In this document: positions 52,154 through 64,000 of the stretch, piece after piece
Layout of the letters: every line of letters starts with the position of its first letter
Position numbering within the stretch: the first letter of the stretch is position 1
Assembly (NCBI GenBank): GCA_003712055.1
Contig: RHLJ01000003.1
Span: forward strand, 248,001 to 312,000
Reading direction: 5' to 3'
Length of the DNA stretch: 64,000 bases
From: Balneola sp.
GTDB taxonomy: Bacteria > Bacteroidota > Rhodothermia > Balneolales > Balneolaceae
Notes under the pieces: generated by a model
Databases searched by the model: none
What the model saw: only the letters and a program-made list of their open reading frames with translations
Told to the model about the DNA's origin: nothing
Program-made: the position numbers and the translations under genes

Positions 52154-52206
52154 CTTCACACTTTCTTCATAATCCGACTCTTTATTTAGAATAATTCTAA
52201 ATAAAG
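52154..52206 (+). promoter_or_regulatory. Composite control region: CTTCAYA pair plus iron-type inverted repeat
   Basis: CTTCACA (52154-52160) and CTTCATA (52165-52171) are direct repeats 11 bp apart. Then comes a perfect 13-bp inverted repeat (52180-52206, TTTATTTAGAAT-A-ATTCTAAATAAA with a flanking C and G), which ends 2 bp before the ATG at 52209. The core ATTTAGA-N5-TCTAAAT recurs at the TonB and hmuS genes. The form resembles Fur/Irr-type operators, so iron control is inferred. The repeats resemble OmpR/PhoB-type half sites. Confidence 0.6.
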
Positions 52207-52208
52207 TA

Positions 52209-52529
52209 ATGGAAAACTCAATCTTATTAGCTGAAGCAGATTGCTTCCAAATCATACAATTCAAATCATGTGGTCGTGTTGGGGTCAGATGTAACAATAC
52301 ACTCCTCAGCTTTACCCAAATCGAATACGAAAAATTTGTTGAGTCTTATCAGAAAATTAGATTCGAGAGACATTCAATCCTGTTCCCAGACAATGTTACT
52401 AGATTGATAATGAATACGCCTGCTCATTGTATTCAACTTTGCTTTAATGAAGAAGAGTACACTGCTTTTAAACAGATTCTAACTGAGGCTATAATAGTTT
52501 TAAGGGCCAAAACAATTATCAATTCATAG
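52209..52529 (+). CDS. Small Cys-rich protein of the heme locus
   Basis: A 106-aa cytoplasmic-looking protein (no signal or membrane segment) with five Cys residues at 12, 21, 28, 74 and 78 (KSCGRVGVRC and HCIQLC). It resembles, by recall, the small DUF6686-type Bacteroidota proteins; I am not certain. The strongest of the three iron-type operators lies directly upstream, so it should be co-regulated with heme uptake. Possible roles include heme or iron sensing, cluster binding or heme trafficking, none shown. Confidence 0.7.
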   Translation: MENSILLAEADCFQIIQFKSCGRVGVRCNNTLLSFTQIEYEKFVESYQKIRFERHSILFPDNVTRLIMNTPAHCIQLCFNEEEYTAFKQILTEAIIVLRAKTIINS

Positions 52530-52532
52530 TGT

Positions 52533-52584
52533 CTTCACAAAATCTTCACATTTCTCCGGTTTATTTGGATCAATTCTAAATAGC
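52533..52584 (+). promoter_or_regulatory. Composite control region, second copy
   Basis: CTTCACA (52533-52539) and CTTCACA (52544-52550) are followed by a degenerate inverted repeat TTTATTTGGATC-A-ATTCTAAATAGC (52560-52584). The repeats start 27 bp before the box here and also at the 52154 copy, so the whole module looks duplicated. It lies directly upstream of the TonB receptor start. Confidence 0.55.
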
Positions 52585-52597
52585 TTTGATTCGAATC

Positions 52598-54874
52598 GTG
52601 AAGTTTTACAAAAATTTCTTCCTAAGAAATTTTCTTTTTCTACTCATCTCCATTCCTGTTTTAGGCCAAGATTCATCTATTGAAGGGGTTATACTTTCAA
52701 AAGATGATCGAGCACCTATTCCCAATGCAAACATAACTTTATCTATCGATAAGGGCACTATATCCGATTTAAAAGGAGAGTTTGAGTTCGTGAACTTAGA
52801 ACCGGGTACTTACACTGTTAATGTCTCAAGCATAGGTTTCGAAGATTATAACACCACCATTGAAGCCCCTGGAATTAAACCACTAAGAATCTTACTGGTA
52901 CCTAAAGTTTATAAAAGTGATGTAGCTGTAATAACGGCTACTCGCACCGAAAAATCATTAGCTGATGTCACTGTTCCGGTAACAGTGATTGGAAAAGAAG
53001 AAATAGAAAGAACTGGTAGCATTCGCTTAAGTGATATTCTTGACGAACAGATTGGGATGAGTATTGTTAATGATCATGGTACCGGAATCCAGGTGCAGGG
53101 ATTTGATCCGGATTACACCCTAATCATGATTGATAATCAGCCGGTTATTGGTAGAACTGCTGGTACCCTCGATTTAACCAGATTGGCAATTGGTAATGTT
53201 GAACAAATTGAAATTGTAAAGGGCCCTTCATCTGCACTCTGGGGAAGCGATGCACTAGCCGGAGTAATCAATATCATAACAGAAAAAGGAAATGCTCCTT
53301 TATCGGCGGAATTAACCTCGCGTTATGGATCAAATGAATCTTATGATGGATCAGGAAACATCAAATTTAAAAGCGAAAAGTTAAGCGGGAATCTATTTGG
53401 TAATTATACCCGATCTTCTGGTTTTGACTTAGACAATACTACTGTTACACCAACCATTCCTCAGTACGATAACATTACATTGATGGGAGGAGTCGATTAC
53501 CGCCTCAATGAGACGTTCAATCTTGGAATAGATGCTCGTTTTTATGAAGAATCGCAGAGTTATCAAACTGAAGTTGATAACCTTCTTTTAAATGGAGATG
53601 AAAGCCAAAAGGATTACAGTTTTTCTCCAGGTATTTCTGCAAATATCGGAGAGCGATTTCTTATTGAGGCGAATGCATTTTTAAGTCGTTTTGAAAGCGA
53701 AACAGTTTTAGATGAAGATGAAAGCGGAGACAATTTTTCATTATCTACTTTCGACCAAACCTTGAATAGGTTTGAATTAAAAAACTCGGCGTTTTGGAAT
53801 CCTAAAAATGTATCTGTATTCGGATTAGGAATGAACCGGGAAGATCTTGTAGCAGAAATTTATGCGGATGTCCCCTTTTTCGATAGCTATTTCCTATTCG
53901 GGCAACATGAGTGGAAACCTATCACGGAAATATCACTTGTTGGAGGTTTTCGTTTTGACTCACACAGCGAGTATAGTTCACAGCTTACGCCAAAATTCTC
54001 CGCCTTATATAAGGCAAGTGATATTGTTAGTGTGAAAGCATCATTGGGGGGTGGTTTTAAAGCTCCTGCATTCCGTCAATTGTTTCTAAATTTTACCAAC
54101 TCAACGGTAGGATACAGTGTATTTGGCACCTCTACAGTTATCGAGGGCGTGGAAGATCTTCAAACAAGGGGAGAAATACAGGAGCTGTTCTACGACCCTG
54201 TAGAATTTACTGATATAACTCCTGAGCGTTCTTTTTCTTTCAATACCGGTTTTGATATTAAGCCAGCTGTTGGCTTGAAAATGACCATTAACGCATTCAG
54301 GAATAACGTACGTGATCTGATTGAAACAGAAAGAATCGCTTTAAAAACAAACGGTCAATCCGTTTTCTCTTATATCAATCTGAATAGAATTTATACTCAA
54401 GGGTCTGAATTCCAAATTACCTATACACCTAGCTTTCTTGAAGCATTTACCTTTAGCATGGGGTATCAATATCTGGATGCACGCCGAAAAATTACCCGTA
54501 CTTTTGATGATGTAGTTAATGGAGAGGTAGTAACCATTACCGAGCAAGAGTATGTCTCTATGTTCAATCGGTCAAAGCATACCTGGAACTTCAAGACTTT
54601 TTACCGAATCCAACCTTGGGACGTAGAGACAAGCTTGCGATTGAGGTACAGGGGAGAATATGGATTCGCAGATTTCAACAGCAATCAGCTTTTGGACGAT
54701 AACGAATATGCAGAGGCGCATGCTATTGTAAATGCCACTATTGCAAAAACCTTTAAAGATCGATATGAGCTAATGGTTGGTGCTAACAACCTCCTCGATT
54801 ACAATCATCCGCTTTACCTACCCTCTGATCCGGGTACCACTTTCTTTGTACAACTGAATATTAACCTATACTAA
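52598..54874 (+). CDS. hmuR: TonB-dependent heme receptor
   Basis: A 758-aa outer-membrane receptor. The signal peptide ends at PVLGQ (about 24 from the GTG at 52598); a TTG at 52586 is an alternative start. A carboxypeptidase-regulatory-like beta-sandwich (about 27-105) precedes the plug (about 112-230, with RLSDILDEQIGMSI, VKGPSSALWGSDALAGVINIIT broken by a loop) and the 22-strand barrel, including a GFKAPAFRQLFLNF segment like the FRAP region of heme receptors. It precedes a double-domain HmuY gene by 21 bp, which makes heme the likely ligand. Iron control is expected from the operator upstream. Confidence 0.88.
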   Translation: MKFYKNFFLRNFLFLLISIPVLGQDSSIEGVILSKDDRAPIPNANITLSIDKGTISDLKGEFEFVNLEPGTYTVNVSSIGFEDYNTTIEAPGIKPLRILLVPKVYKSDVAVITATRTEKSLADVTVPVTVIGKEEIERTGSIRLSDILDEQIGMSIVNDHGTGIQVQGFDPDYTLIMIDNQPVIGRTAGTLDLTRLAIGNVEQIEIVKGPSSALWGSDALAGVINIITEKGNAPLSAELTSRYGSNESYDGSGNIKFKSEKLSGNLFGNYTRSSGFDLDNTTVTPTIPQYDNITLMGGVDYRLNETFNLGIDARFYEESQSYQTEVDNLLLNGDESQKDYSFSPGISANIGERFLIEANAFLSRFESETVLDEDESGDNFSLSTFDQTLNRFELKNSAFWNPKNVSVFGLGMNREDLVAEIYADVPFFDSYFLFGQHEWKPITEISLVGGFRFDSHSEYSSQLTPKFSALYKASDIVSVKASLGGGFKAPAFRQLFLNFTNSTVGYSVFGTSTVIEGVEDLQTRGEIQELFYDPVEFTDITPERSFSFNTGFDIKPAVGLKMTINAFRNNVRDLIETERIALKTNGQSVFSYINLNRIYTQGSEFQITYTPSFLEAFTFSMGYQYLDARRKITRTFDDVVNGEVVTITEQEYVSMFNRSKHTWNFKTFYRIQPWDVETSLRLRYRGEYGFADFNSNQLLDDNEYAEAHAIVNATIAKTFKDRYELMVGANNLLDYNHPLYLPSDPGTTFFVQLNINLY

Positions 54875-54895: not shown

Positions 54896-55969
54896 ATGAA
54901 GTACTTATCACAAAAAACTCCATTGCTTCTAATCCTTATGGCTACCACTTTTGTAGCTTGTAAATCATCTGGAAATGATGGTCCAGCAGATGTTAATGCA
55001 ATAACAGTAAATGACCTTGCTGCTAATGTAGTAACAATTTTTTCTCCATCAGGCCCTGCTACTGATGTTGCAGGTGATACTGCAGAAACAGAAACCTATG
55101 TGTATTACGATCTTGATACCGGCTCAACTGTAGCTGATGCAGCTTCCTCCGCTTGGGATATAGCATTTGGAGGAACTACCATACTTGCCAATAGCGCTAA
55201 TGGTGGTGGTATCCAACTTGTAGATGCAGATTACGCTTCTACCCAAACTGCTCCTGAAGCTGGTTATGCTAATGACAATGCATCTTGGTACTTATACACT
55301 GCTGAAATACCAAACCTACCTCCTCATGCTATTCTTCCACTTGAAGACAAGACATTGGTAGTAAGAACTGCAGATAACCGTTATGCTAAAGTGCAGATAG
55401 TTAGCTATTACGAAGGAAATCCCGATACCAGCACGGAAGAATTTGCGAGCTTTTTTACTCGCCCAGCAGGCCGATACTTCACGTTTAACTACACCATCCA
55501 GAATGATGGAAGTACACAGTTATATCACGAGGATACATTCACTTATTATGACCTGGATGAAAATGAAATCGTAGAAGATGAAGCTTCTTCTCAATGGGAT
55601 ATAGCTTTTAGCGGAACTACCATTATGGCCAATAGTGAACAAAATGGTGGCTTGCAGCTTCTTAACATTGAGTACACTAATCTTGATGAAGCTCCAACAA
55701 GTGGATATACTGGAACTACTTCAGCGTGGTATACTTATACAGGTGAAGCCCCTACTGGGCCCACCCATGCTATTTTGCCTAATGATGGGCAAACATTGGT
55801 AGTACTTACTCCGGAAGGAAAATATGCTAAAGTTCAAATTCTGAGCTACTACCAAGGCAATCCTGATGTTAGCTCAGAAGCTTTCATCAACTTATTTACT
55901 CGGCCTGCAGCAAGATACTATACCTTTAACTTTGGTATCCAAACTGATGGGTCAACGCTTTTTGAATAA
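54896..55969 (+). CDS. hmuY: HmuY-like lipoprotein with two HmuY domains
   Basis: A 357-aa lipoprotein (lipobox FVAC, Cys 22) with two copies of the HmuY fold: about 60-200 and 210-357. Matching pieces are VYYDLDTG / TYYDLDEN, SSAWDIAFGGTTILANS / SSQWDIAFSGTTIMANS, and PHAILP (H144) / THAILP (H291), followed by YAKVQI and SYY. HmuY proteins capture heme at the surface and pass it to the TonB receptor. Single-domain HmuY has one heme site; two domains could hold two. The conserved His pair is a candidate heme ligand; HmuY itself uses two His. It ends at a strong terminator. Confidence 0.88.
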   Translation: MKYLSQKTPLLLILMATTFVACKSSGNDGPADVNAITVNDLAANVVTIFSPSGPATDVAGDTAETETYVYYDLDTGSTVADAASSAWDIAFGGTTILANSANGGGIQLVDADYASTQTAPEAGYANDNASWYLYTAEIPNLPPHAILPLEDKTLVVRTADNRYAKVQIVSYYEGNPDTSTEEFASFFTRPAGRYFTFNYTIQNDGSTQLYHEDTFTYYDLDENEIVEDEASSQWDIAFSGTTIMANSEQNGGLQLLNIEYTNLDEAPTSGYTGTTSAWYTYTGEAPTGPTHAILPNDGQTLVVLTPEGKYAKVQILSYYQGNPDVSSEAFINLFTRPAARYYTFNFGIQTDGSTLFE

Positions 55970-56081: not shown

Positions 56082-57131
56082 ATGACTAAAAATGAACTTC
56101 GGACAAAAGCTGCTGAGCTTAAAAAAGAACAACCAAAACTTAGAGCAGTAAATCTTGCGGAACAATTAGGAGTTAGCGAAGCGGAACTCGTTTCTACCAA
56201 TGAAAAGGCAACCCGCCTTACTGAAGACTGGGAAGGTATTTTTAAAGCGGTAGAGACTCTGGGCTATGTAATGGCACTCACCCGTAATAAATCAGTAGTC
56301 CATGAACGAAAAGGGGAATACCATAATATCAGCTTTGAAGGTCATGTTGGACTGGTGCTCGATCCAAACATTGATCTAAGAATTTTCCAGAACCGTTTTG
56401 GCTTTGTGTTTGCTGTACCTGTTGAAAGCCCCAGAGGTACATTACGCAGTATCCAGTTCTTTGATAAAAAAGGCGTTGCTGCCCATAAGATTTATCTTAT
56501 GAATGAAGAACATATTTCAGATTATGATGCTTTAGTTCAAAGCTTTGCTCATCCTGACCAGGAATCTGAATTGGAATTTTCCAACTCTGCGGGTCGCCCT
56601 CCTCAAGCTAACGGAAACGTAGAACATGAATTTAATGCGGAAGCTTTTCTGTCTGACTGGTCTGAATTAAAGGACACTCATGACTTTTACCCATTGCTCA
56701 TGAAGCATAAGGTGGAACGTACAAAAGCGCTTGAAGTAGCAGAAGGTAGATTTACACTCAAAGTAGATAATTCAGCTACCGAAATGATGCTGAATAAAGC
56801 ATCCGAAGAGCAGGTTTCTATTATGGTGTTTGTAAGCAGTGGTCCTGTTATTCAAATCCACACGGGTGAGGTAGAAAAGATCAAGAAAATGGATAACTGG
56901 CTAAATGTACTCGACTCGGAGTTCAACCTGCATCTTCGTGAAGATCATATCGCACATTCATGGGTGGTTGAAAAACCAACAGAAGATGGAATCGTTACCT
57001 CCCTGGAAATCTTTGACGAAGACCGAAACAACATCGCCACTTTCTTCGGTGCTCGTAAACCAGGTAAACCTGAGTTGGAAACATGGAGAAGCCTCATTGC
57101 TGAAATTAGGGAAGAAGGGGTACTGGCGTGA
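56082..57131 (+). CDS. hmuS: Heme-degrading/trafficking factor HmuS (HemS/ChuS family)
   Basis: A 349-aa cytoplasmic protein with the HemS/ChuS two-repeat organisation: 1-170 and 190-349. The first half has ALTRNKSVVHERKGEYHNIS and HVGLVLDPNIDLRIF, and the second ISIMVFVSSGPVIQIH-like SIMVFVSSGPVIQIHTGEVE, with DLFLREDHI-like NLHLREDHIAHSWVV. Members bind heme and release iron from it, or pass it to a heme oxygenase. It overlaps hmuT (ATGA-like, 4 bp) and begins the hmuSTUV operon behind its own operator. Confidence 0.92.
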   Translation: MTKNELRTKAAELKKEQPKLRAVNLAEQLGVSEAELVSTNEKATRLTEDWEGIFKAVETLGYVMALTRNKSVVHERKGEYHNISFEGHVGLVLDPNIDLRIFQNRFGFVFAVPVESPRGTLRSIQFFDKKGVAAHKIYLMNEEHISDYDALVQSFAHPDQESELEFSNSAGRPPQANGNVEHEFNAEAFLSDWSELKDTHDFYPLLMKHKVERTKALEVAEGRFTLKVDNSATEMMLNKASEEQVSIMVFVSSGPVIQIHTGEVEKIKKMDNWLNVLDSEFNLHLREDHIAHSWVVEKPTEDGIVTSLEIFDEDRNNIATFFGARKPGKPELETWRSLIAEIREEGVLA

Positions 57132-58018
57132 AAAAACTGATTGTAAGTTTACTGCTTCTTTTTGGAGTATCATTCACAGCTCAAACTCAAACCACTATTG
57201 AGGGAGCAGATGGGGTAAATGTTGAAATAGACAATTTATCCAGGATTATTACGGTTGGGGGATCTATTTCGGAAACTGTTTGGGCGCTTGGCGGAGGACC
57301 GCAAGTAATTGCAACAGATGAATCTACCACTTTCCCTCCTGAAGTTTTTCGTATGCCTCGAGTGCCTTATGTAAGAAACCTGACCTCTGAGGGTATCCTT
57401 TCACTTGGTCCAACCTTGATATTGGCAAGTGATGATGCAAGCCCACAGGCAGCAGTAGACCAAATACGTTCTGCTGGAACAGACCTTCTTCTTATTAAAG
57501 AGGAAGAGTCGATGGAAGGAGTGATACACAAAATTAAGATCATTGGCGAAGTACTTGGTAAAACTGATGAAGCTCAGGAGCTTATTCGTGAAAACCAGGA
57601 ACTCTATGATAAAGCTGCTGAATACAGGAAAGAGCTTACTTCAGAACCTAGCGTATTATTTGTCTTAAGTGTGAACAACGGGAGCACTTTTATGGCAGCA
57701 GGAACTAATACTGGAGCTGAGAAAATAATCGCTCTGGCTGGCGGTAAAAATGCAATGGAATCGTTTCAGGGATACAAACCTGTATCTAATGAAGCCATCT
57801 TAGCAGCTAATCCCGATTATATTCTGGTAATGGAATCCCGTCTTGAAGAAGTTACCAATGCAGTAAAAAATACTGACGGTATAAACCTAATTACTGCTTC
57901 TCAAAAAAATCAGATTGTTGGAATGGATGGAAATAAGCTACTTGGATTTGGCCCTCGATTTGGTTCAGCAATATTAGAATTAATATCGCTCTTACATCCT
58001 GAAGAATCTGACCTCTGA
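57128..58018 (+). CDS. hmuT: Heme ABC transporter substrate-binding protein
   Basis: A 296-aa periplasmic binding protein starting at GTG 57128, signal peptide ending about residue 20 (FTAQT). The fold is the class III binding protein type. A Tyr in the VPYVRNLTSEGILSL block (Y81) is at the position used for heme ligation in HmuT/ShuT relatives. TVGGSISETVWALG is the conserved opening and AANPDYILVME a later strand. It hands heme to HmuUV. Two bases separate its stop from hmuU. Confidence 0.92.
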   Translation: MKKLIVSLLLLFGVSFTAQTQTTIEGADGVNVEIDNLSRIITVGGSISETVWALGGGPQVIATDESTTFPPEVFRMPRVPYVRNLTSEGILSLGPTLILASDDASPQAAVDQIRSAGTDLLLIKEEESMEGVIHKIKIIGEVLGKTDEAQELIRENQELYDKAAEYRKELTSEPSVLFVLSVNNGSTFMAAGTNTGAEKIIALAGGKNAMESFQGYKPVSNEAILAANPDYILVMESRLEEVTNAVKNTDGINLITASQKNQIVGMDGNKLLGFGPRFGSAILELISLLHPEESDL

Positions 58019-58020
58019 TT

Positions 58021-59100
58021 TTGAGTTCTTTTTCGTATCACTGGTTTAATTCATACAAAAAGCAGGTTTCTACTCTTTTTGTACTATTTCTTGCCCTCAT
58101 CTTTGTAAGCTTGCTATCTATCGGGATTGGACCAGTATCCATTGGAGTAAAAGATGTAGTCTTAATTCTGTTAGATGGGATGGGTATCCTTGACCCAGAT
58201 GAATCAAAACTCCAATATTCGGCTATTATTCTCGGCATTAGAGTTCCACGAGTAATTATGGCCATTGCAGTTGGTGCTACGCTAGCTATCTCAGGGGCTG
58301 CTTTACAAGGCCTTTTTCGAAATCCTCTTGCCGACCCAACGCTTATTGGAGTTTCCAGTGGATCTGCCTTTGCTGCTGCTGCAGTCATAATTCTAGGTGG
58401 CGGTTTAGTAGCTATACTACCGGCATTTATATATTCAGCATTACTTCCTATCGCTGCTTTTTTTGGTGGTCTGGCAGCCACCTGGCTAGTATATCTTATT
58501 TCTACCAAGGCGGGGAAAACGAACGTGGCTACTATGTTACTCGCAGGAATAGCCATTAATGCCTTAGCTGCTGCTGGCATAGGATTCCTAATTTTTACAG
58601 CTGATGATTTACAAATCCGGGATTTAACCTTTTGGACACTAGGAAGTCTGGGAAGTTCAGTATGGAATAACGTGTATCGAGCTGTCCCTTTTATGATGAT
58701 TGCGATTATTGGATTGCCGCTCCTTTCAAAAGCTATGAATATTTTGTTGTTGGGAGAAAGTGAAGCCCGGCATCTTGGAATACGAACGGAAAGAATTAAG
58801 AAAGTAGTCATTACCCTTTCTGCTTTGGGTATAGGCTCTGCAGTGGCTGTAAGTGGAATTATTGGATTTGTAGGGTTGGTAGTACCCCATTTGCTTCGTC
58901 TTATTATTGGGCCTGACCACCGTTTCTTAATGCCTGCTTCCATTTTATTGGGAGCACTTTTGATGCTTGCTTCAGACCTTTTTGCACGAATGGTGGTAAT
59001 TCCAGCTGAGTTACCTATTGGTATCGTTACCTCAGCAATTGGAGCTCCTTTCTTTTTATGGCTACTAATGCGTAATCGTACATTGAGTTCCTATCTATGA
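58021..59100 (+). CDS. hmuU: Heme ABC transporter permease (FecCD family)
   Basis: A 359-aa FecCD-type permease with about ten membrane helices. Conserved parts include RVPRVIMAIAVGATLAISGAALQG (split by loops), NPLADPTLIGVSSG, and the ATPase-contact motif in FVGLVVPHLLR, plus the GGxIGAP-type end SAIGAPFFLWLLMR. The start is TTG at 58021, directly after the hmuT stop. Heme or cobalamin-like import by the HmuTUV complex follows from its neighbours. Confidence 0.92.
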   Translation: MSSFSYHWFNSYKKQVSTLFVLFLALIFVSLLSIGIGPVSIGVKDVVLILLDGMGILDPDESKLQYSAIILGIRVPRVIMAIAVGATLAISGAALQGLFRNPLADPTLIGVSSGSAFAAAAVIILGGGLVAILPAFIYSALLPIAAFFGGLAATWLVYLISTKAGKTNVATMLLAGIAINALAAAGIGFLIFTADDLQIRDLTFWTLGSLGSSVWNNVYRAVPFMMIAIIGLPLLSKAMNILLLGESEARHLGIRTERIKKVVITLSALGIGSAVAVSGIIGFVGLVVPHLLRLIIGPDHRFLMPASILLGALLMLASDLFARMVVIPAELPIGIVTSAIGAPFFLWLLMRNRTLSSYL

Positions 59101-59894
59101 TTGTTGCTGAACATATTAATGTTGTAGTATCTGGTAAGAAGAAACTGGTAGAAGAATTTTCTGTTAAAATTCAGCCTGGTGTTCTTACTGCCGTTATCGG
59201 AAAGAATGGAGCTGGAAAATCTACTTCTTTAAAGGCTATTACCGGAGATATCGCCCATCAATCAGGAACTATCTACCTCGAAGAAACACCCATTCAAAAA
59301 GTCCCGATCCAAGAGTTAGCCCGCAAACGTGCTGTCGTTCATCAGAAATCCTCCCTGCAATTTTCGTTTTCTGTCCAGGATGTAGTAGGGCTTGGAAGAT
59401 CTCCCTATGGAGGCACTTTTTTATCTGGCAAAGACTTTGAAATTGTCGAAGAGTGCCTTCAAAAAGTGGATGCGACCCATCTTATGGAGAGGACCTATAC
59501 CACACTTTCTGGAGGAGAGCAGCAACGGGTGCAATTTGCGCGGTCTTTGGCCCAGATATGGGATGCTATTGAATCTAATTCTCCTTCTTACTTATTGCTT
59601 GACGAACCTCTAGCCAGCCTGGATGTGGCGCATCAGCATGAGATGATGCATGTGTTAAAGCAATTATGTGCCTCCAATGTGGGAGTTTTTATCATTATTC
59701 ATGATTTGAATCTGGCCGCACAATACTCCGATTATATCATCATTCTTAAAGACGGAAAAACAGTGGCTGAAGGAACCGCCAAAGAAGTATTTAACGAAGA
59801 GATTATTGGTTCCGCTTTTGATTTCCCGGTTAGCATTATTCCTCACCCTAAAATTGACTGTCCGCTTATCGTAGCCAGTGGATTAATTGATTAG
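59097..59894 (+). CDS. hmuV: Heme ABC transporter ATP-binding protein
   Basis: A 265-aa ABC ATPase with GKNGAGKST (Walker A), the Q-loop VHQKSS, signature LSGGEQQRVQFARSL and Walker B YLLLDEPLASLD, then the HDL motif IIHDLNLAAQYSD. This is the HmuV/FecE type. ATGA overlap with hmuU. It completes the hmuSTUV operon. An inverted-repeat element follows. Confidence 0.93.
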   Translation: MIVAEHINVVVSGKKKLVEEFSVKIQPGVLTAVIGKNGAGKSTSLKAITGDIAHQSGTIYLEETPIQKVPIQELARKRAVVHQKSSLQFSFSVQDVVGLGRSPYGGTFLSGKDFEIVEECLQKVDATHLMERTYTTLSGGEQQRVQFARSLAQIWDAIESNSPSYLLLDEPLASLDVAHQHEMMHVLKQLCASNVGVFIIIHDLNLAAQYSDYIIILKDGKTVAEGTAKEVFNEEIIGSAFDFPVSIIPHPKIDCPLIVASGLID

Positions 59895-61487: not shown

Positions 61488-62126
61488 ATGCGCAAGTACT
61501 TAGTTGAAGCAGTCGGTACATTCTTTCTGGCCTTATCAATGGGTCTTACTACTAATCCATTAGCCATAGGCCTACTACTAGCGGGGCTTATTTATGGCGG
61601 TATGCATGTCTCTGGCGCTCATTTTAACCCAGCAATTTCTTTTGCTTATCTGCTCAAAAAAAGAATCTCCTTCGGTACTTTTAGCAGTTACTTTGTGAGC
61701 CAATGTTTGGGCGTTTTTGCAGCAGGTGGACTTATCCTCTTTTTTTCGAATGAGGTTTTCTATGTTGAACCCCCTGCTTCCACCGACTTGTACCAACAAG
61801 CTGGTATGGAGCTCCTTCTTACATTTGTATTAGCACTTACTTACCTGAGTGTTGCTACTGACAAAGTGCTGGCATCAAATAAAGCCTATGGACTTGCGAT
61901 AGGTCTTGTACTTTCAGGCTTGATTATGCTTGGTGATTCAATATCAGGAGCAGTGCTAAATCCTGCTATATCTATAGGTCTTTCGGCCATCGATTTCCTG
62001 GCAATCAGAGGAGCTTCTTATGAATTTATTCCGCTTTATCTCGTTAGCCCAATAGCTGGCGCTACCCTGGCCGCCTTATTCCATCAGTATATCAACAACG
62101 ACTACTCTTCTGTTACATCAAGATAG
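61488..62126 (+). CDS. Aquaporin (MIP family)
   Basis: A 212-aa six-helix channel. The two conserved half-helix motifs are HFNPAIS (NPA at 47-49) and VLNPAIS (NPA at 158-160). The opening YLVEAVGTFFLAL is typical. Water or small neutral solutes are the likely substrates. The residues flanking the NPA motifs do not obviously mark a glycerol channel. TTAGGA precedes the ATG. The end overlaps the converging kinase gene by 25 bp. Confidence 0.9.
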   Translation: MRKYLVEAVGTFFLALSMGLTTNPLAIGLLLAGLIYGGMHVSGAHFNPAISFAYLLKKRISFGTFSSYFVSQCLGVFAAGGLILFFSNEVFYVEPPASTDLYQQAGMELLLTFVLALTYLSVATDKVLASNKAYGLAIGLVLSGLIMLGDSISGAVLNPAISIGLSAIDFLAIRGASYEFIPLYLVSPIAGATLAALFHQYINNDYSSVTSR

Positions 62127-63511
62127 AAATAGAAGGTAGACCCTTCACCTGATGTGCTATCCACAAAGATATCCTTTTGGTGAGCATTAAGAATTCCTTT
62201 TACGACAGCCAATCCTAAGCCTGTACCTCCTTTATCTCTGGATCGTGCTTTATCAGTTCTGTAAAACCTGTCGAATAACCTATCCAGATGCTTTTGGTCA
62301 ATTCCTATTCCAGTATCCTTAACCGATATCTTGCCAAGCTCATTATTTAATTTGACCAATTCGATTGTGATCTCACCTTCGTTTGTATACTTCACTGCGT
62401 TTGAAACCAAATTATCCAGTACTTGTTCAATCTTATCCCGATCAGCCAGTACTGAAATACCTGTATCCATTTTTGTAGATAATTCGATACCCTTTTCTTT
62501 AGCTATCAATGAATAGGTTTTAGATACCTCTTTGATGAGTTGGTTTATATTAAACACCGATTTTTGGATATAGCTTTCATCATAATCGTATCGCTGTAAT
62601 GATTTAATGTCTTCGAAAAGGCGAACTACCCGTTCAACTTGTTTTTGCGCGGTTCCTAAATATTGATTCTTTTTAGGTTCATCAAGCGAAGGCATTTGTA
62701 ACATTTCGAGCGCCCCTGAAATCGTATGCAATGGATTCCTAACCTCGTGGGTAATATCCGCAAAGAATTGGTTCTGCTTCTCATTTAGCAATTTCAGTTT
62801 TTCATTGTCTGCCTTAAGAGTTCCAGCCATTTGGTTGAGCGAATCAGCAAGCATACCAAATTCGTCCTCACGTTCAAGGTGTAACTCTCTGTCTAAATCC
62901 CCGGCTGCAATATCCAGCGCTGCGTCGTTGAGCTGTTTAATGGGCTTTGCGAGATATCTTGCAAAAAGCAGACTCACAAAAAATACAACAAGGATCGAAC
63001 CAATCATTGCTCCGTAAATCAAATGCCTGATACTGGCTTCTGCGGCATAAAGGTCGTCTTTATTCTGGCTAATCCTTAAATACCTGGCTTCAAAATCATT
63101 CTCTGCAAAACTATGGAAGGAGATTAAGTTCTCCAGTTCTTCTTCATTAATGATTACCTGGTCTTCTGTTTCATCAAGAATACTTTTAAGAGAGTCGGTC
63201 AAAAACTCTCTTGAGTCTGTAAAGCCGGATACGTTGTTAGAAGCACTAACCAGTACGGTTCCCAATGAGTCGAATAATGCGATCTCATAACCCGTCAACT
63301 CCGACATAAAATTAACCTGTACAACTACCTCGCTAATACTTGGCTTGCTTTCAAGGGATTGAGCGAGTGTATTGGCATCGCTTTCAAACTTCTGTATGGT
63401 TTCTTCCAGCAGAAAAGAGCGAATACTGAGAATGGCATAGGAGCTAATCACCACTACCCCTATAGACAGGAGAACGATATAAACTGCCGCTAGTTTAGTT
63501 TGAATGTTCAT
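62102..63511 (-). CDS. HAMP-domain sensor histidine kinase
   Basis: A 469-aa two-component kinase. Two membrane helices (about 8-32 and 165-184) flank a periplasmic sensor domain. HAMP follows (185-240), then HisKA with phospho-acceptor H255 in ITHEVRNPLH, and HATPase_c with NLVSNAVKYTNEG, DTGIGID and GGTGLGL. Its start overlaps the response regulator stop by ATGA, so regulator and kinase are co-translated. The signal is unknown. Confidence 0.93.
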   Translation of the reverse strand: MNIQTKLAAVYIVLLSIGVVVISSYAILSIRSFLLEETIQKFESDANTLAQSLESKPSISEVVVQVNFMSELTGYEIALFDSLGTVLVSASNNVSGFTDSREFLTDSLKSILDETEDQVIINEEELENLISFHSFAENDFEARYLRISQNKDDLYAAEASIRHLIYGAMIGSILVVFFVSLLFARYLAKPIKQLNDAALDIAAGDLDRELHLEREDEFGMLADSLNQMAGTLKADNEKLKLLNEKQNQFFADITHEVRNPLHTISGALEMLQMPSLDEPKKNQYLGTAQKQVERVVRLFEDIKSLQRYDYDESYIQKSVFNINQLIKEVSKTYSLIAKEKGIELSTKMDTGISVLADRDKIEQVLDNLVSNAVKYTNEGEITIELVKLNNELGKISVKDTGIGIDQKHLDRLFDRFYRTDKARSRDKGGTGLGLAVVKGILNAHQKDIFVDSTSGEGSTFYFYLDVTEE

Positions 63512-64000
63512 AAGGTCAAAAACTCACGGTTAAACCCGTAACCAACTCCTCTATAAGTTTTAATGAGTTTCCCTTCGTCTTTCATTTTGAGCCTTAGGTT
63601 CTTGATATGTACATCCACCGTGCGATCGAATATATATTTTTCTTCATCGCTGATATGTTCAAGGATCTCTTGTCGGCTATATACCCTTTTTGGGTGCTGA
63701 AAGAACAACTCTGCAATGATATATTCTGTATGTGTAAGATCAATTTTTTCCTCACTGATATACATCTCATTCGTTTCTGTATCCAGATATACATGATCAT
63801 ACTTTAACCAGTTACTTCTCTCCGGACTTTTTCTCCTTAACTGACTTTCAATATGAGCCTTAATCAATTTCAGACCTGCTGGTTTTTTGATATAATCATC
63901 TGCACCTAATTCGAGGCCTTCGATTTCATCTTTTTCCTCATCTCTGGCTGTTAGAAACAGAACCGGAATATCATTTATCACCGGATGCTTGCGAATATGA
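63508..64000 (-). CDS. OmpR/PhoB-type response regulator (cut by window edge)
   Basis: The 3' part of a response regulator, running off the window end. The visible part starts within the receiver domain (IPVLFLTARDEEKDEIEGLE and GADDYIKKP, with the conserved Lys before Pro), followed by a winged-helix trans_reg_C domain (LTHTEYIIAELFF, DRTVDVHIKNLRLKM, TYRGVGYGF). It pairs with the kinase downstream. The phospho-acceptor Asp lies beyond the edge, so the protein cannot be checked in full. Confidence 0.93.
   Translation of the reverse strand, partial: HIRKHPVINDIPVLFLTARDEEKDEIEGLELGADDYIKKPAGLKLIKAHIESQLRRKSPERSNWLKYDHVYLDTETNEMYISEEKIDLTHTEYIIAELFFQHPKRVYSRQEILEHISDEEKYIFDRTVDVHIKNLRLKMKDEGKLIKTYRGVGYGFNREFLTL

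Follow-up and report, generated by a model that had tools for sequence, protein, structure and literature searches.

Duplicated composite promoters at a heme-uptake locus suggest joint control of heme supply by a two-component system and Fur in Balneolaceae

Results

Organization of the heme-uptake locus

The source genome belongs to the Balneolaceae, and the window (the whole stretch of 64,000 nucleotides that was analyzed) contains a heme-uptake locus in which the genes for a DUF6686-like small protein, a TonB-dependent receptor, an HmuY-like protein, a HemS/ChuX protein, a FecB/C/D-type importer, an aquaporin and a two-component system follow in this order (Table 1). The small Cys-rich protein has homologues in other genera (L030, L032 and L037), where the gene contexts are different and some include Fur-type boxes close by. 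No ferrochelatase (PF00762) was found in the source genome (G000) or in its two congeners, and the enzyme is present in 69 of the 92 family genomes. The absence of ferrochelatase from all three genomes predicts that the species depends on imported heme. Ferrochelatase is also missing from several other genera despite close relatives that have one. For the ferrochelatase-less genomes as a group, heme auxotrophy is predicted, perhaps as the outcome of several independent losses.

The control regions of the small gene and of the receptor gene share one composite sequence, CTTCAYA-N4-CTTCAYA-N9-TTTATTTRGA-N5-TCTAAATA. We refer to the direct repeat CTTCAYA-N4-CTTCAYA as DR and to the inverted repeat downstream of it in the composite as IR. 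Read directly, the window holds two copies, with N4, N9, N5 and the 27-bp offset identical, and 37 of the 50 aligned bases agree between them. The preliminary description of this DNA had reported the same arrangement with the correct start positions, and the ends that it gave (52206 and 52584) are two to three bases too long. Two elements absent from it are the third half-site, upstream of copy 2, and a third IR, which stands without a DR upstream of hemS.

We scanned genomes by pattern search with the reversed pattern as a control. The string CTTCAYA-N4-CTTCAYA-N9-TTTATTTRGA has exactly two matches in the 3.63-Mb genome, both at the heme locus, and its reversed control has none; under an independent-base model, about 7e-11 copies of the composite are expected by chance. 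The composite is confirmed as exact and far beyond chance, with no further copy in the genome. The DR alone has three exact matches in the whole genome.

Table 1. Positions of genes and control elements in the window.
Feature	Position	Strand	Remarks
DR copy 1, CTTCACA-N4-CTTCATA	52154..52171	+	Predicted response-regulator site of the DUF6686-like small gene; half-sites CTTCACA 52154-52160 and CTTCATA 52165-52171; same spacing in G040
IR copy 1, putative Fur-type box	52181..52205	+	Perfect 25-bp palindrome without mismatch (TTTATTTAGAATAATTCTAAATAAA); arms TTTATTTAGA 52181-52190 and TCTAAATA 52196-52203; left arm TTTATTTAG is the predicted -7 box
Small Cys-rich gene, distant DUF6686 relative	52209..52529	+	106 aa; PF20391 E 0.0028, below cut-off; G040 orthologue above cut-off
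DR copy 2 with upstream half-site	52522..52550	+	Extra half-site ATTCATA 52522-52528, then CTTCACA 52533-52539 and CTTCACA 52544-52550; same 11-bp period throughout
IR copy 2, putative Fur-type box	52560..52582	+	Arms TTTATTTGGA 52560-52569 and TCTAAATA 52575-52582; overlies the receptor gene's predicted -7 box TTTATTTG; kept in ten receptor promoters of this architecture
TonB-dependent receptor of heme-uptake locus	52586..54874	+	Start TTG 52586 or, more likely, GTG 52598
HmuY-like heme-binding lipoprotein	54896..55969	+	PF14064
Third IR, TTAATTTAGAAACAGTCTAAATTAA	56034..56058	+	Without DR, upstream of hemS; perfect 10-5-10 palindrome TTAATTTAGA-AACAG-TCTAAATTAA
HemS/ChuX heme-handling protein	56082..57131	+	
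FecB/C/D-type heme or iron ABC importer	57128..59894	+	Binding protein, permease, ATPase
Sensor histidine kinase of linked two-component system	62102..63511	-	Predicted periplasmic alpha/beta sensor domain, HAMP, HisKA, HATPase
PhoB-subfamily response regulator, proposed DR binder	63508..64000	-	Gene runs on to 64209, past the window

Conservation and duplication of the composite

The order DR-N9-IR and its spacing are kept at the heme receptors of all 10 genomes inspected (G000, G001, G003, G006, G032, G033, G034, G036, G039 and G040), so that the search of relatives proposed in the preliminary description finds the 27-bp spacing conserved in 10 of 10 receptor promoters. At the receptor of genus g19 the DR is retained and the IR is not. 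The DR and the IR are separate conserved elements.

G040 has one composite at the small gene and another at the receptor, and the 40-bp stretch before the first is the same, base for base, as the one before the second; in G039, the small gene is missing and a homologue of this stretch lies upstream of the receptor. These observations indicate that the two control regions are duplicates and support the earlier suggestion that the small gene and the receptor share one evolved promoter, in which case the small gene's promoter would be a duplicate of the receptor's. In the source genome, the control regions have diverged outside the motifs, with an alignment score of 51 against a shuffle maximum of 37. 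At the receptor, where the extra half-site of the source genome is in phase with the DR, both G040 and G039 carry a full additional DR some 54 bp upstream.

The direct repeat marks a family-wide set of genes

In family-wide pattern scans, the DR exceeded its reversed control in the Balneolaceae. The family has two types of ferrochelatase, about 25% identical and found in different genera (loci L081-L102 versus L172-L220), and a DR precedes the genes for both. For type-1 hemH, a DR lies within 250 bp upstream in 46 of 46 promoters (45 with one mismatch and one with two). Type-2 hemH, which sits at a separate locus and not next to the two-component system, has a DR with at most two mismatches in 18 of 20 promoters, with the start codon 50-58 nt past the DR. 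Combined, 64 of the 66 ferrochelatase promoters tested carry a DR at up to two mismatches, and an exact DR was found in 13 of 13 heme receptor promoters. The DR can stand before a ferrochelatase gene of either of these dissimilar types or, where ferrochelatase is absent, before the heme receptor.

Further genes with a DR are hemA, cydA (cytochrome bd), and those for cytochrome c assembly, azurin, ScdA/RIC, FeoA, YceI, DoxX, bacilliredoxin and a PD40 lipoprotein; these other sites come from scans allowing two mismatches, and some, for example those at xerC-like genes, may be chance matches. The third exact DR of the source genome lies 43 bp upstream of a gene for a 234-aa membrane protein (L005 754-1458; G000 C5). 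This protein has no Pfam match, its homologues in six relatives carry an exact DR, and a cydB-like gene is close by in one of them; it is possibly an undescribed heme- or respiration-related protein. As controls, the upstream regions of the AQP, SDR, RR, HmuY and CDGSH genes by the two-component system never gave a DR match better than three mismatches. A near match (one or two mismatches) occurs upstream of DUF423 genes in 6 of 26 cases in relatives.

In a phylum sample of 394 genomes, the motif was essentially limited to the Balneolaceae, and about 349 other Bacteroidota genomes showed it only at control level. The presence of one box before heme-making, heme-importing and respiratory genes throughout the family suggests that it marks an unrecognized control circuit for heme and respiration. 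Our literature search found no paper on the DR box or on heme or respiration control in Balneolaceae, and the DR regulon appears to be undescribed, with parts of known kinds.

Position of the repeats within the promoter

In the hemH and receptor sites, for whose location only the DR was used, T is found almost without exception at positions 27-28 and 31-32 past the start of the DR, which yields T(T/A)nnTTT at N9. Several DR-only sites read literally TAnnTTT, and TAnnTTTG is the -7 box of Bacteroidota (PMC7366714). A -7 box at this fixed distance implies that the DR extends from about -38 to -21 and takes the position of the -33 element, an arrangement known from class II activators of the PhoB type. 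At type-2 hemH sites, the distance from the DR to the start is kept, the -7 box is less clear, and the fit to this geometry is poorer. The DR has two properties of an OmpR/PhoB-type activator site: head-to-tail repeats with an 11-bp period, and a fixed -33/-35 position relative to the predicted core promoter. Within each composite, the predicted -7 box coincides with the left IR arm, which suggests that a protein bound to the IR would block the polymerase.

A linked two-component system is the most likely binder of the direct repeat

Most genomes of the family contain a single clear orthologue of the kinase gene at the end of the locus. In 46 genomes, orthologues of the two-component system adjoin hemH, and in other genomes they adjoin the heme-uptake locus: the order response regulator, kinase, (aquaporin), hemH is found in g3, g7 and g10-g17, and the order response regulator, kinase, (aquaporin), heme uptake in g1, part of g2, g6, g8 and g19. 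The order response regulator, kinase, hemH is retained in two genomes of a sister family, and no DR was found at the hemH next to the two-component system in these two genomes. Six of the 7 kinase-less genomes had no match to the DR composite, against 2 of the 85 others (Fisher p 3e-7), a co-occurrence that is confounded because the kinase-less genomes are small or incomplete. No DR was found upstream of the response-regulator gene itself, and autoregulation is therefore not indicated.

The response regulator is of the PhoB subfamily. Its recognition helix, DRTVDVH[IV]KN, does not vary within the family, is of a form generic to the PhoB subfamily, and occurs as well in members of the order that have no DR. 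A comparison of this helix as a possible reason for the missing DR at the sister-family hemH was uninformative, since the helix is identical. An AlphaFold model of the sensor (pTM 0.45) shows an alpha/beta periplasmic domain, and a Foldseek search with this model returned matches mainly to the kinase core, with no hint of a ligand.

On the basis of linkage and co-occurrence, the two-component system encoded at 62102-64209 is the most likely binder of the DR. Together, these two observations are good circumstantial evidence, not proof. An alternative that we consider unlikely, yet the strongest of those weighed here, is that the DR is a real activator site of a heme and respiration regulon bound by another OmpR-family regulator or by an AraC-type protein. 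AraC-type proteins also contact two repeats spaced by 11 bp, about 15 kinase paralogues occur in the source genome, and every genome has many OmpR-type systems. The generic recognition helix and the missing DR at the sister-family hemH fit this alternative too, and the linkage may partly reflect shared ancestry, as the two-component system and the heme genes lie in a broadly conserved neighborhood. Against another binder, the two-component system is linked in many genera to both of the main DR targets, which are mutually alternative, and the system and the DR are jointly absent.

The inverted repeat is consistent with a Fur-type box

The best IR matches in the source genome precede both composite genes, hemS, feoA1A2B and a multiheme cytochrome c operon. 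Two Fur-family genes are present in this genome, with scores of 98 and 44 bits, and such a gene together with a palindromic operator at the receptor, hemS and feoA1A2B agrees with a Fur regulon. Genome-wide, the IR pattern was not over-represented, with counts equal to or below the reversed control. Its interpretation as a general genome-wide motif was rejected, and the support for the IR comes from its placement and conservation. At type-1 hemH, an IR with at most three mismatches lies upstream of the DR in 36 of 46 promoters, compared with 4 of 46 for the reversed pattern, and its offsets form two clusters, at -35 and -25, which differ by roughly one turn of the helix. The box order at type-1 hemH, IR then DR, is the reverse of that at the receptors.

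These data are consistent with the IR being a Fur-type box, to which Fur is predicted to bind. The hemS promoter, with an IR and no DR, is accordingly a candidate for iron control only, as judged from its sequence. Binding of the IR by an Irr- or PerR-like member of the Fur family that senses heme or peroxide, in place of Fur, seems to us somewhat less probable than the idea of a different DR binder. The form TTTAGAA-N3-TTCTAAA resembles the Irr ICE box, the genome has a second Fur-family gene, and the IR at hemH lies upstream of the DR and not over the promoter; in favor of Fur, an IR is found before feoA1A2B as well, and these genes are typical targets of Fur.

Discussion

A two-input model for heme supply

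Taken as a whole, the observations are probably best explained by two-input promoters of a heme and respiration regulon, with the linked response regulator on the DR and Fur on the IR. The response regulator, being of the OmpR/PhoB type, would occupy the -33 region by binding the DR in head-to-tail fashion, with a period of 11 bp, and would activate transcription from the -7 box located 9 nt downstream. Iron-loaded Fur on the IR, whose position over the -7 box is seen directly, would block the promoter when iron is plentiful. The response regulator may in this way raise heme supply and heme-dependent respiration together: heme import would be raised in ferrochelatase-less species, and ferrochelatase and hemA in heme makers, with Fur adding an iron veto at the import genes.

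The preliminary description had proposed that the locus integrates two signals, iron and another such as phosphate or envelope stress. The Fur-type IR and the OmpR/PhoB-type site are indeed separate, and two inputs remain in our model; phosphate and envelope stress do not, as the regulon consists of heme supply and respiration and the regulator scores below the curated PhoB cut-offs. To judge from the regulon, the second signal is probably heme or the respiratory state, not phosphate. That the DR is a Pho box through which the locus integrates phosphate and iron is very improbable: in its favor are the PhoB-like direct repeats of 11-bp period and the PhoB-subfamily membership of the linked regulator, but this regulator scores 195 and 186.7 bits against curated PhoB cut-offs of 296.2 and 270, and no phosphate gene is among the DR targets identified, with no pst or pho gene at any of the DR sites inspected. 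Equally remote is the reading of the DR as an ordinary core-promoter element, an objection that had been raised at the outset and that its place in the -33 region at a fixed spacing to the -7 box would fit; we rejected it on rarity and gene coherence, since the 3.6-Mb genome holds only three exact DRs and two composites, the targets are coherent, neighboring genes lack a DR, and other Bacteroidota show the motif at control level.

For the control of heme and respiration in Balneolaceae, the two-input model with the linked response regulator and Fur names a candidate regulator together with its site and its target genes. Ferrochelatase-less species that carry the same box on the receptor offer a natural comparison, in which the regulon would follow the function from synthesis to import. 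A more far-reaching version, which we put forward tentatively, is that across the family heme supply is matched to respiration by a single PhoB-subfamily two-component system, whichever source of heme the cell uses, and that the Fur box upstream of the DR at hemH, with its offsets about a helical turn apart, may make iron a co-activator of heme synthesis; both proteins would be the same as at the import genes, where iron represses, the sign of the iron effect being set by the order of the boxes. The swap in Fur-box position between import and synthesis genes predicts opposite effects of iron.

Comparison with known systems

In the HssRS/HrtAB systems of Gram-positive bacteria, a heme-sensing two-component system, whose regulator acts through a direct repeat, controls heme efflux under heme excess (PMC3968170, PMC6305404). 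The likeness is that the regulator of a heme-related two-component system uses a direct repeat; the difference is that HssRS turns on heme efflux, whereas the DR targets in Balneolaceae supply and use heme. The repeat of S. aureus HssR is GTTCATATT-N2-GTTCATATT, and a core TTCATA-N5-TTCATA is common to it and the DR. No hrtAB efflux genes were found among the identified DR targets.

Classical Fur repression is similar in that a palindromic A/T-rich operator lies over the promoter of the heme receptor, hemS and feoAB. It differs in that the box in Balneolaceae stands at a fixed distance from a response-regulator-type site and, at the ferrochelatase genes, is moved upstream of the DR.

The HrrSA system of Corynebacterium glutamicum controls hemA, hemE, hemH, heme utilization and cytochrome oxidases including cydAB, and overlaps with DtxR (PMC7337898). 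As proposed here, a two-component system acts jointly on heme synthesis, heme use and cytochromes with an overlapping iron regulator. However, HrrSA represses hemH, whereas we infer activation in Balneolaceae, and the phylum is a different one. HrrA is a NarL/LuxR-type regulator and not of the OmpR/PhoB type.

SrrAB is an OmpR-type system in which SrrB has extra sensor domains. In Staphylococcus aureus, this system of the ResDE type has a regulon that includes cydAB, hemABCX and scdA (PMC4956065). This regulon is very like the DR gene set, although the box is another one. To our knowledge, no composite of the SrrAB site with a Fur box at a heme receptor is known. The content of the DR regulon, namely heme synthesis and import, cytochromes and iron-sulphur repair, resembles those of SrrAB and HrrSA, and the proposed circuit would adjust heme supply and heme-dependent respiration to heme or the respiratory state.
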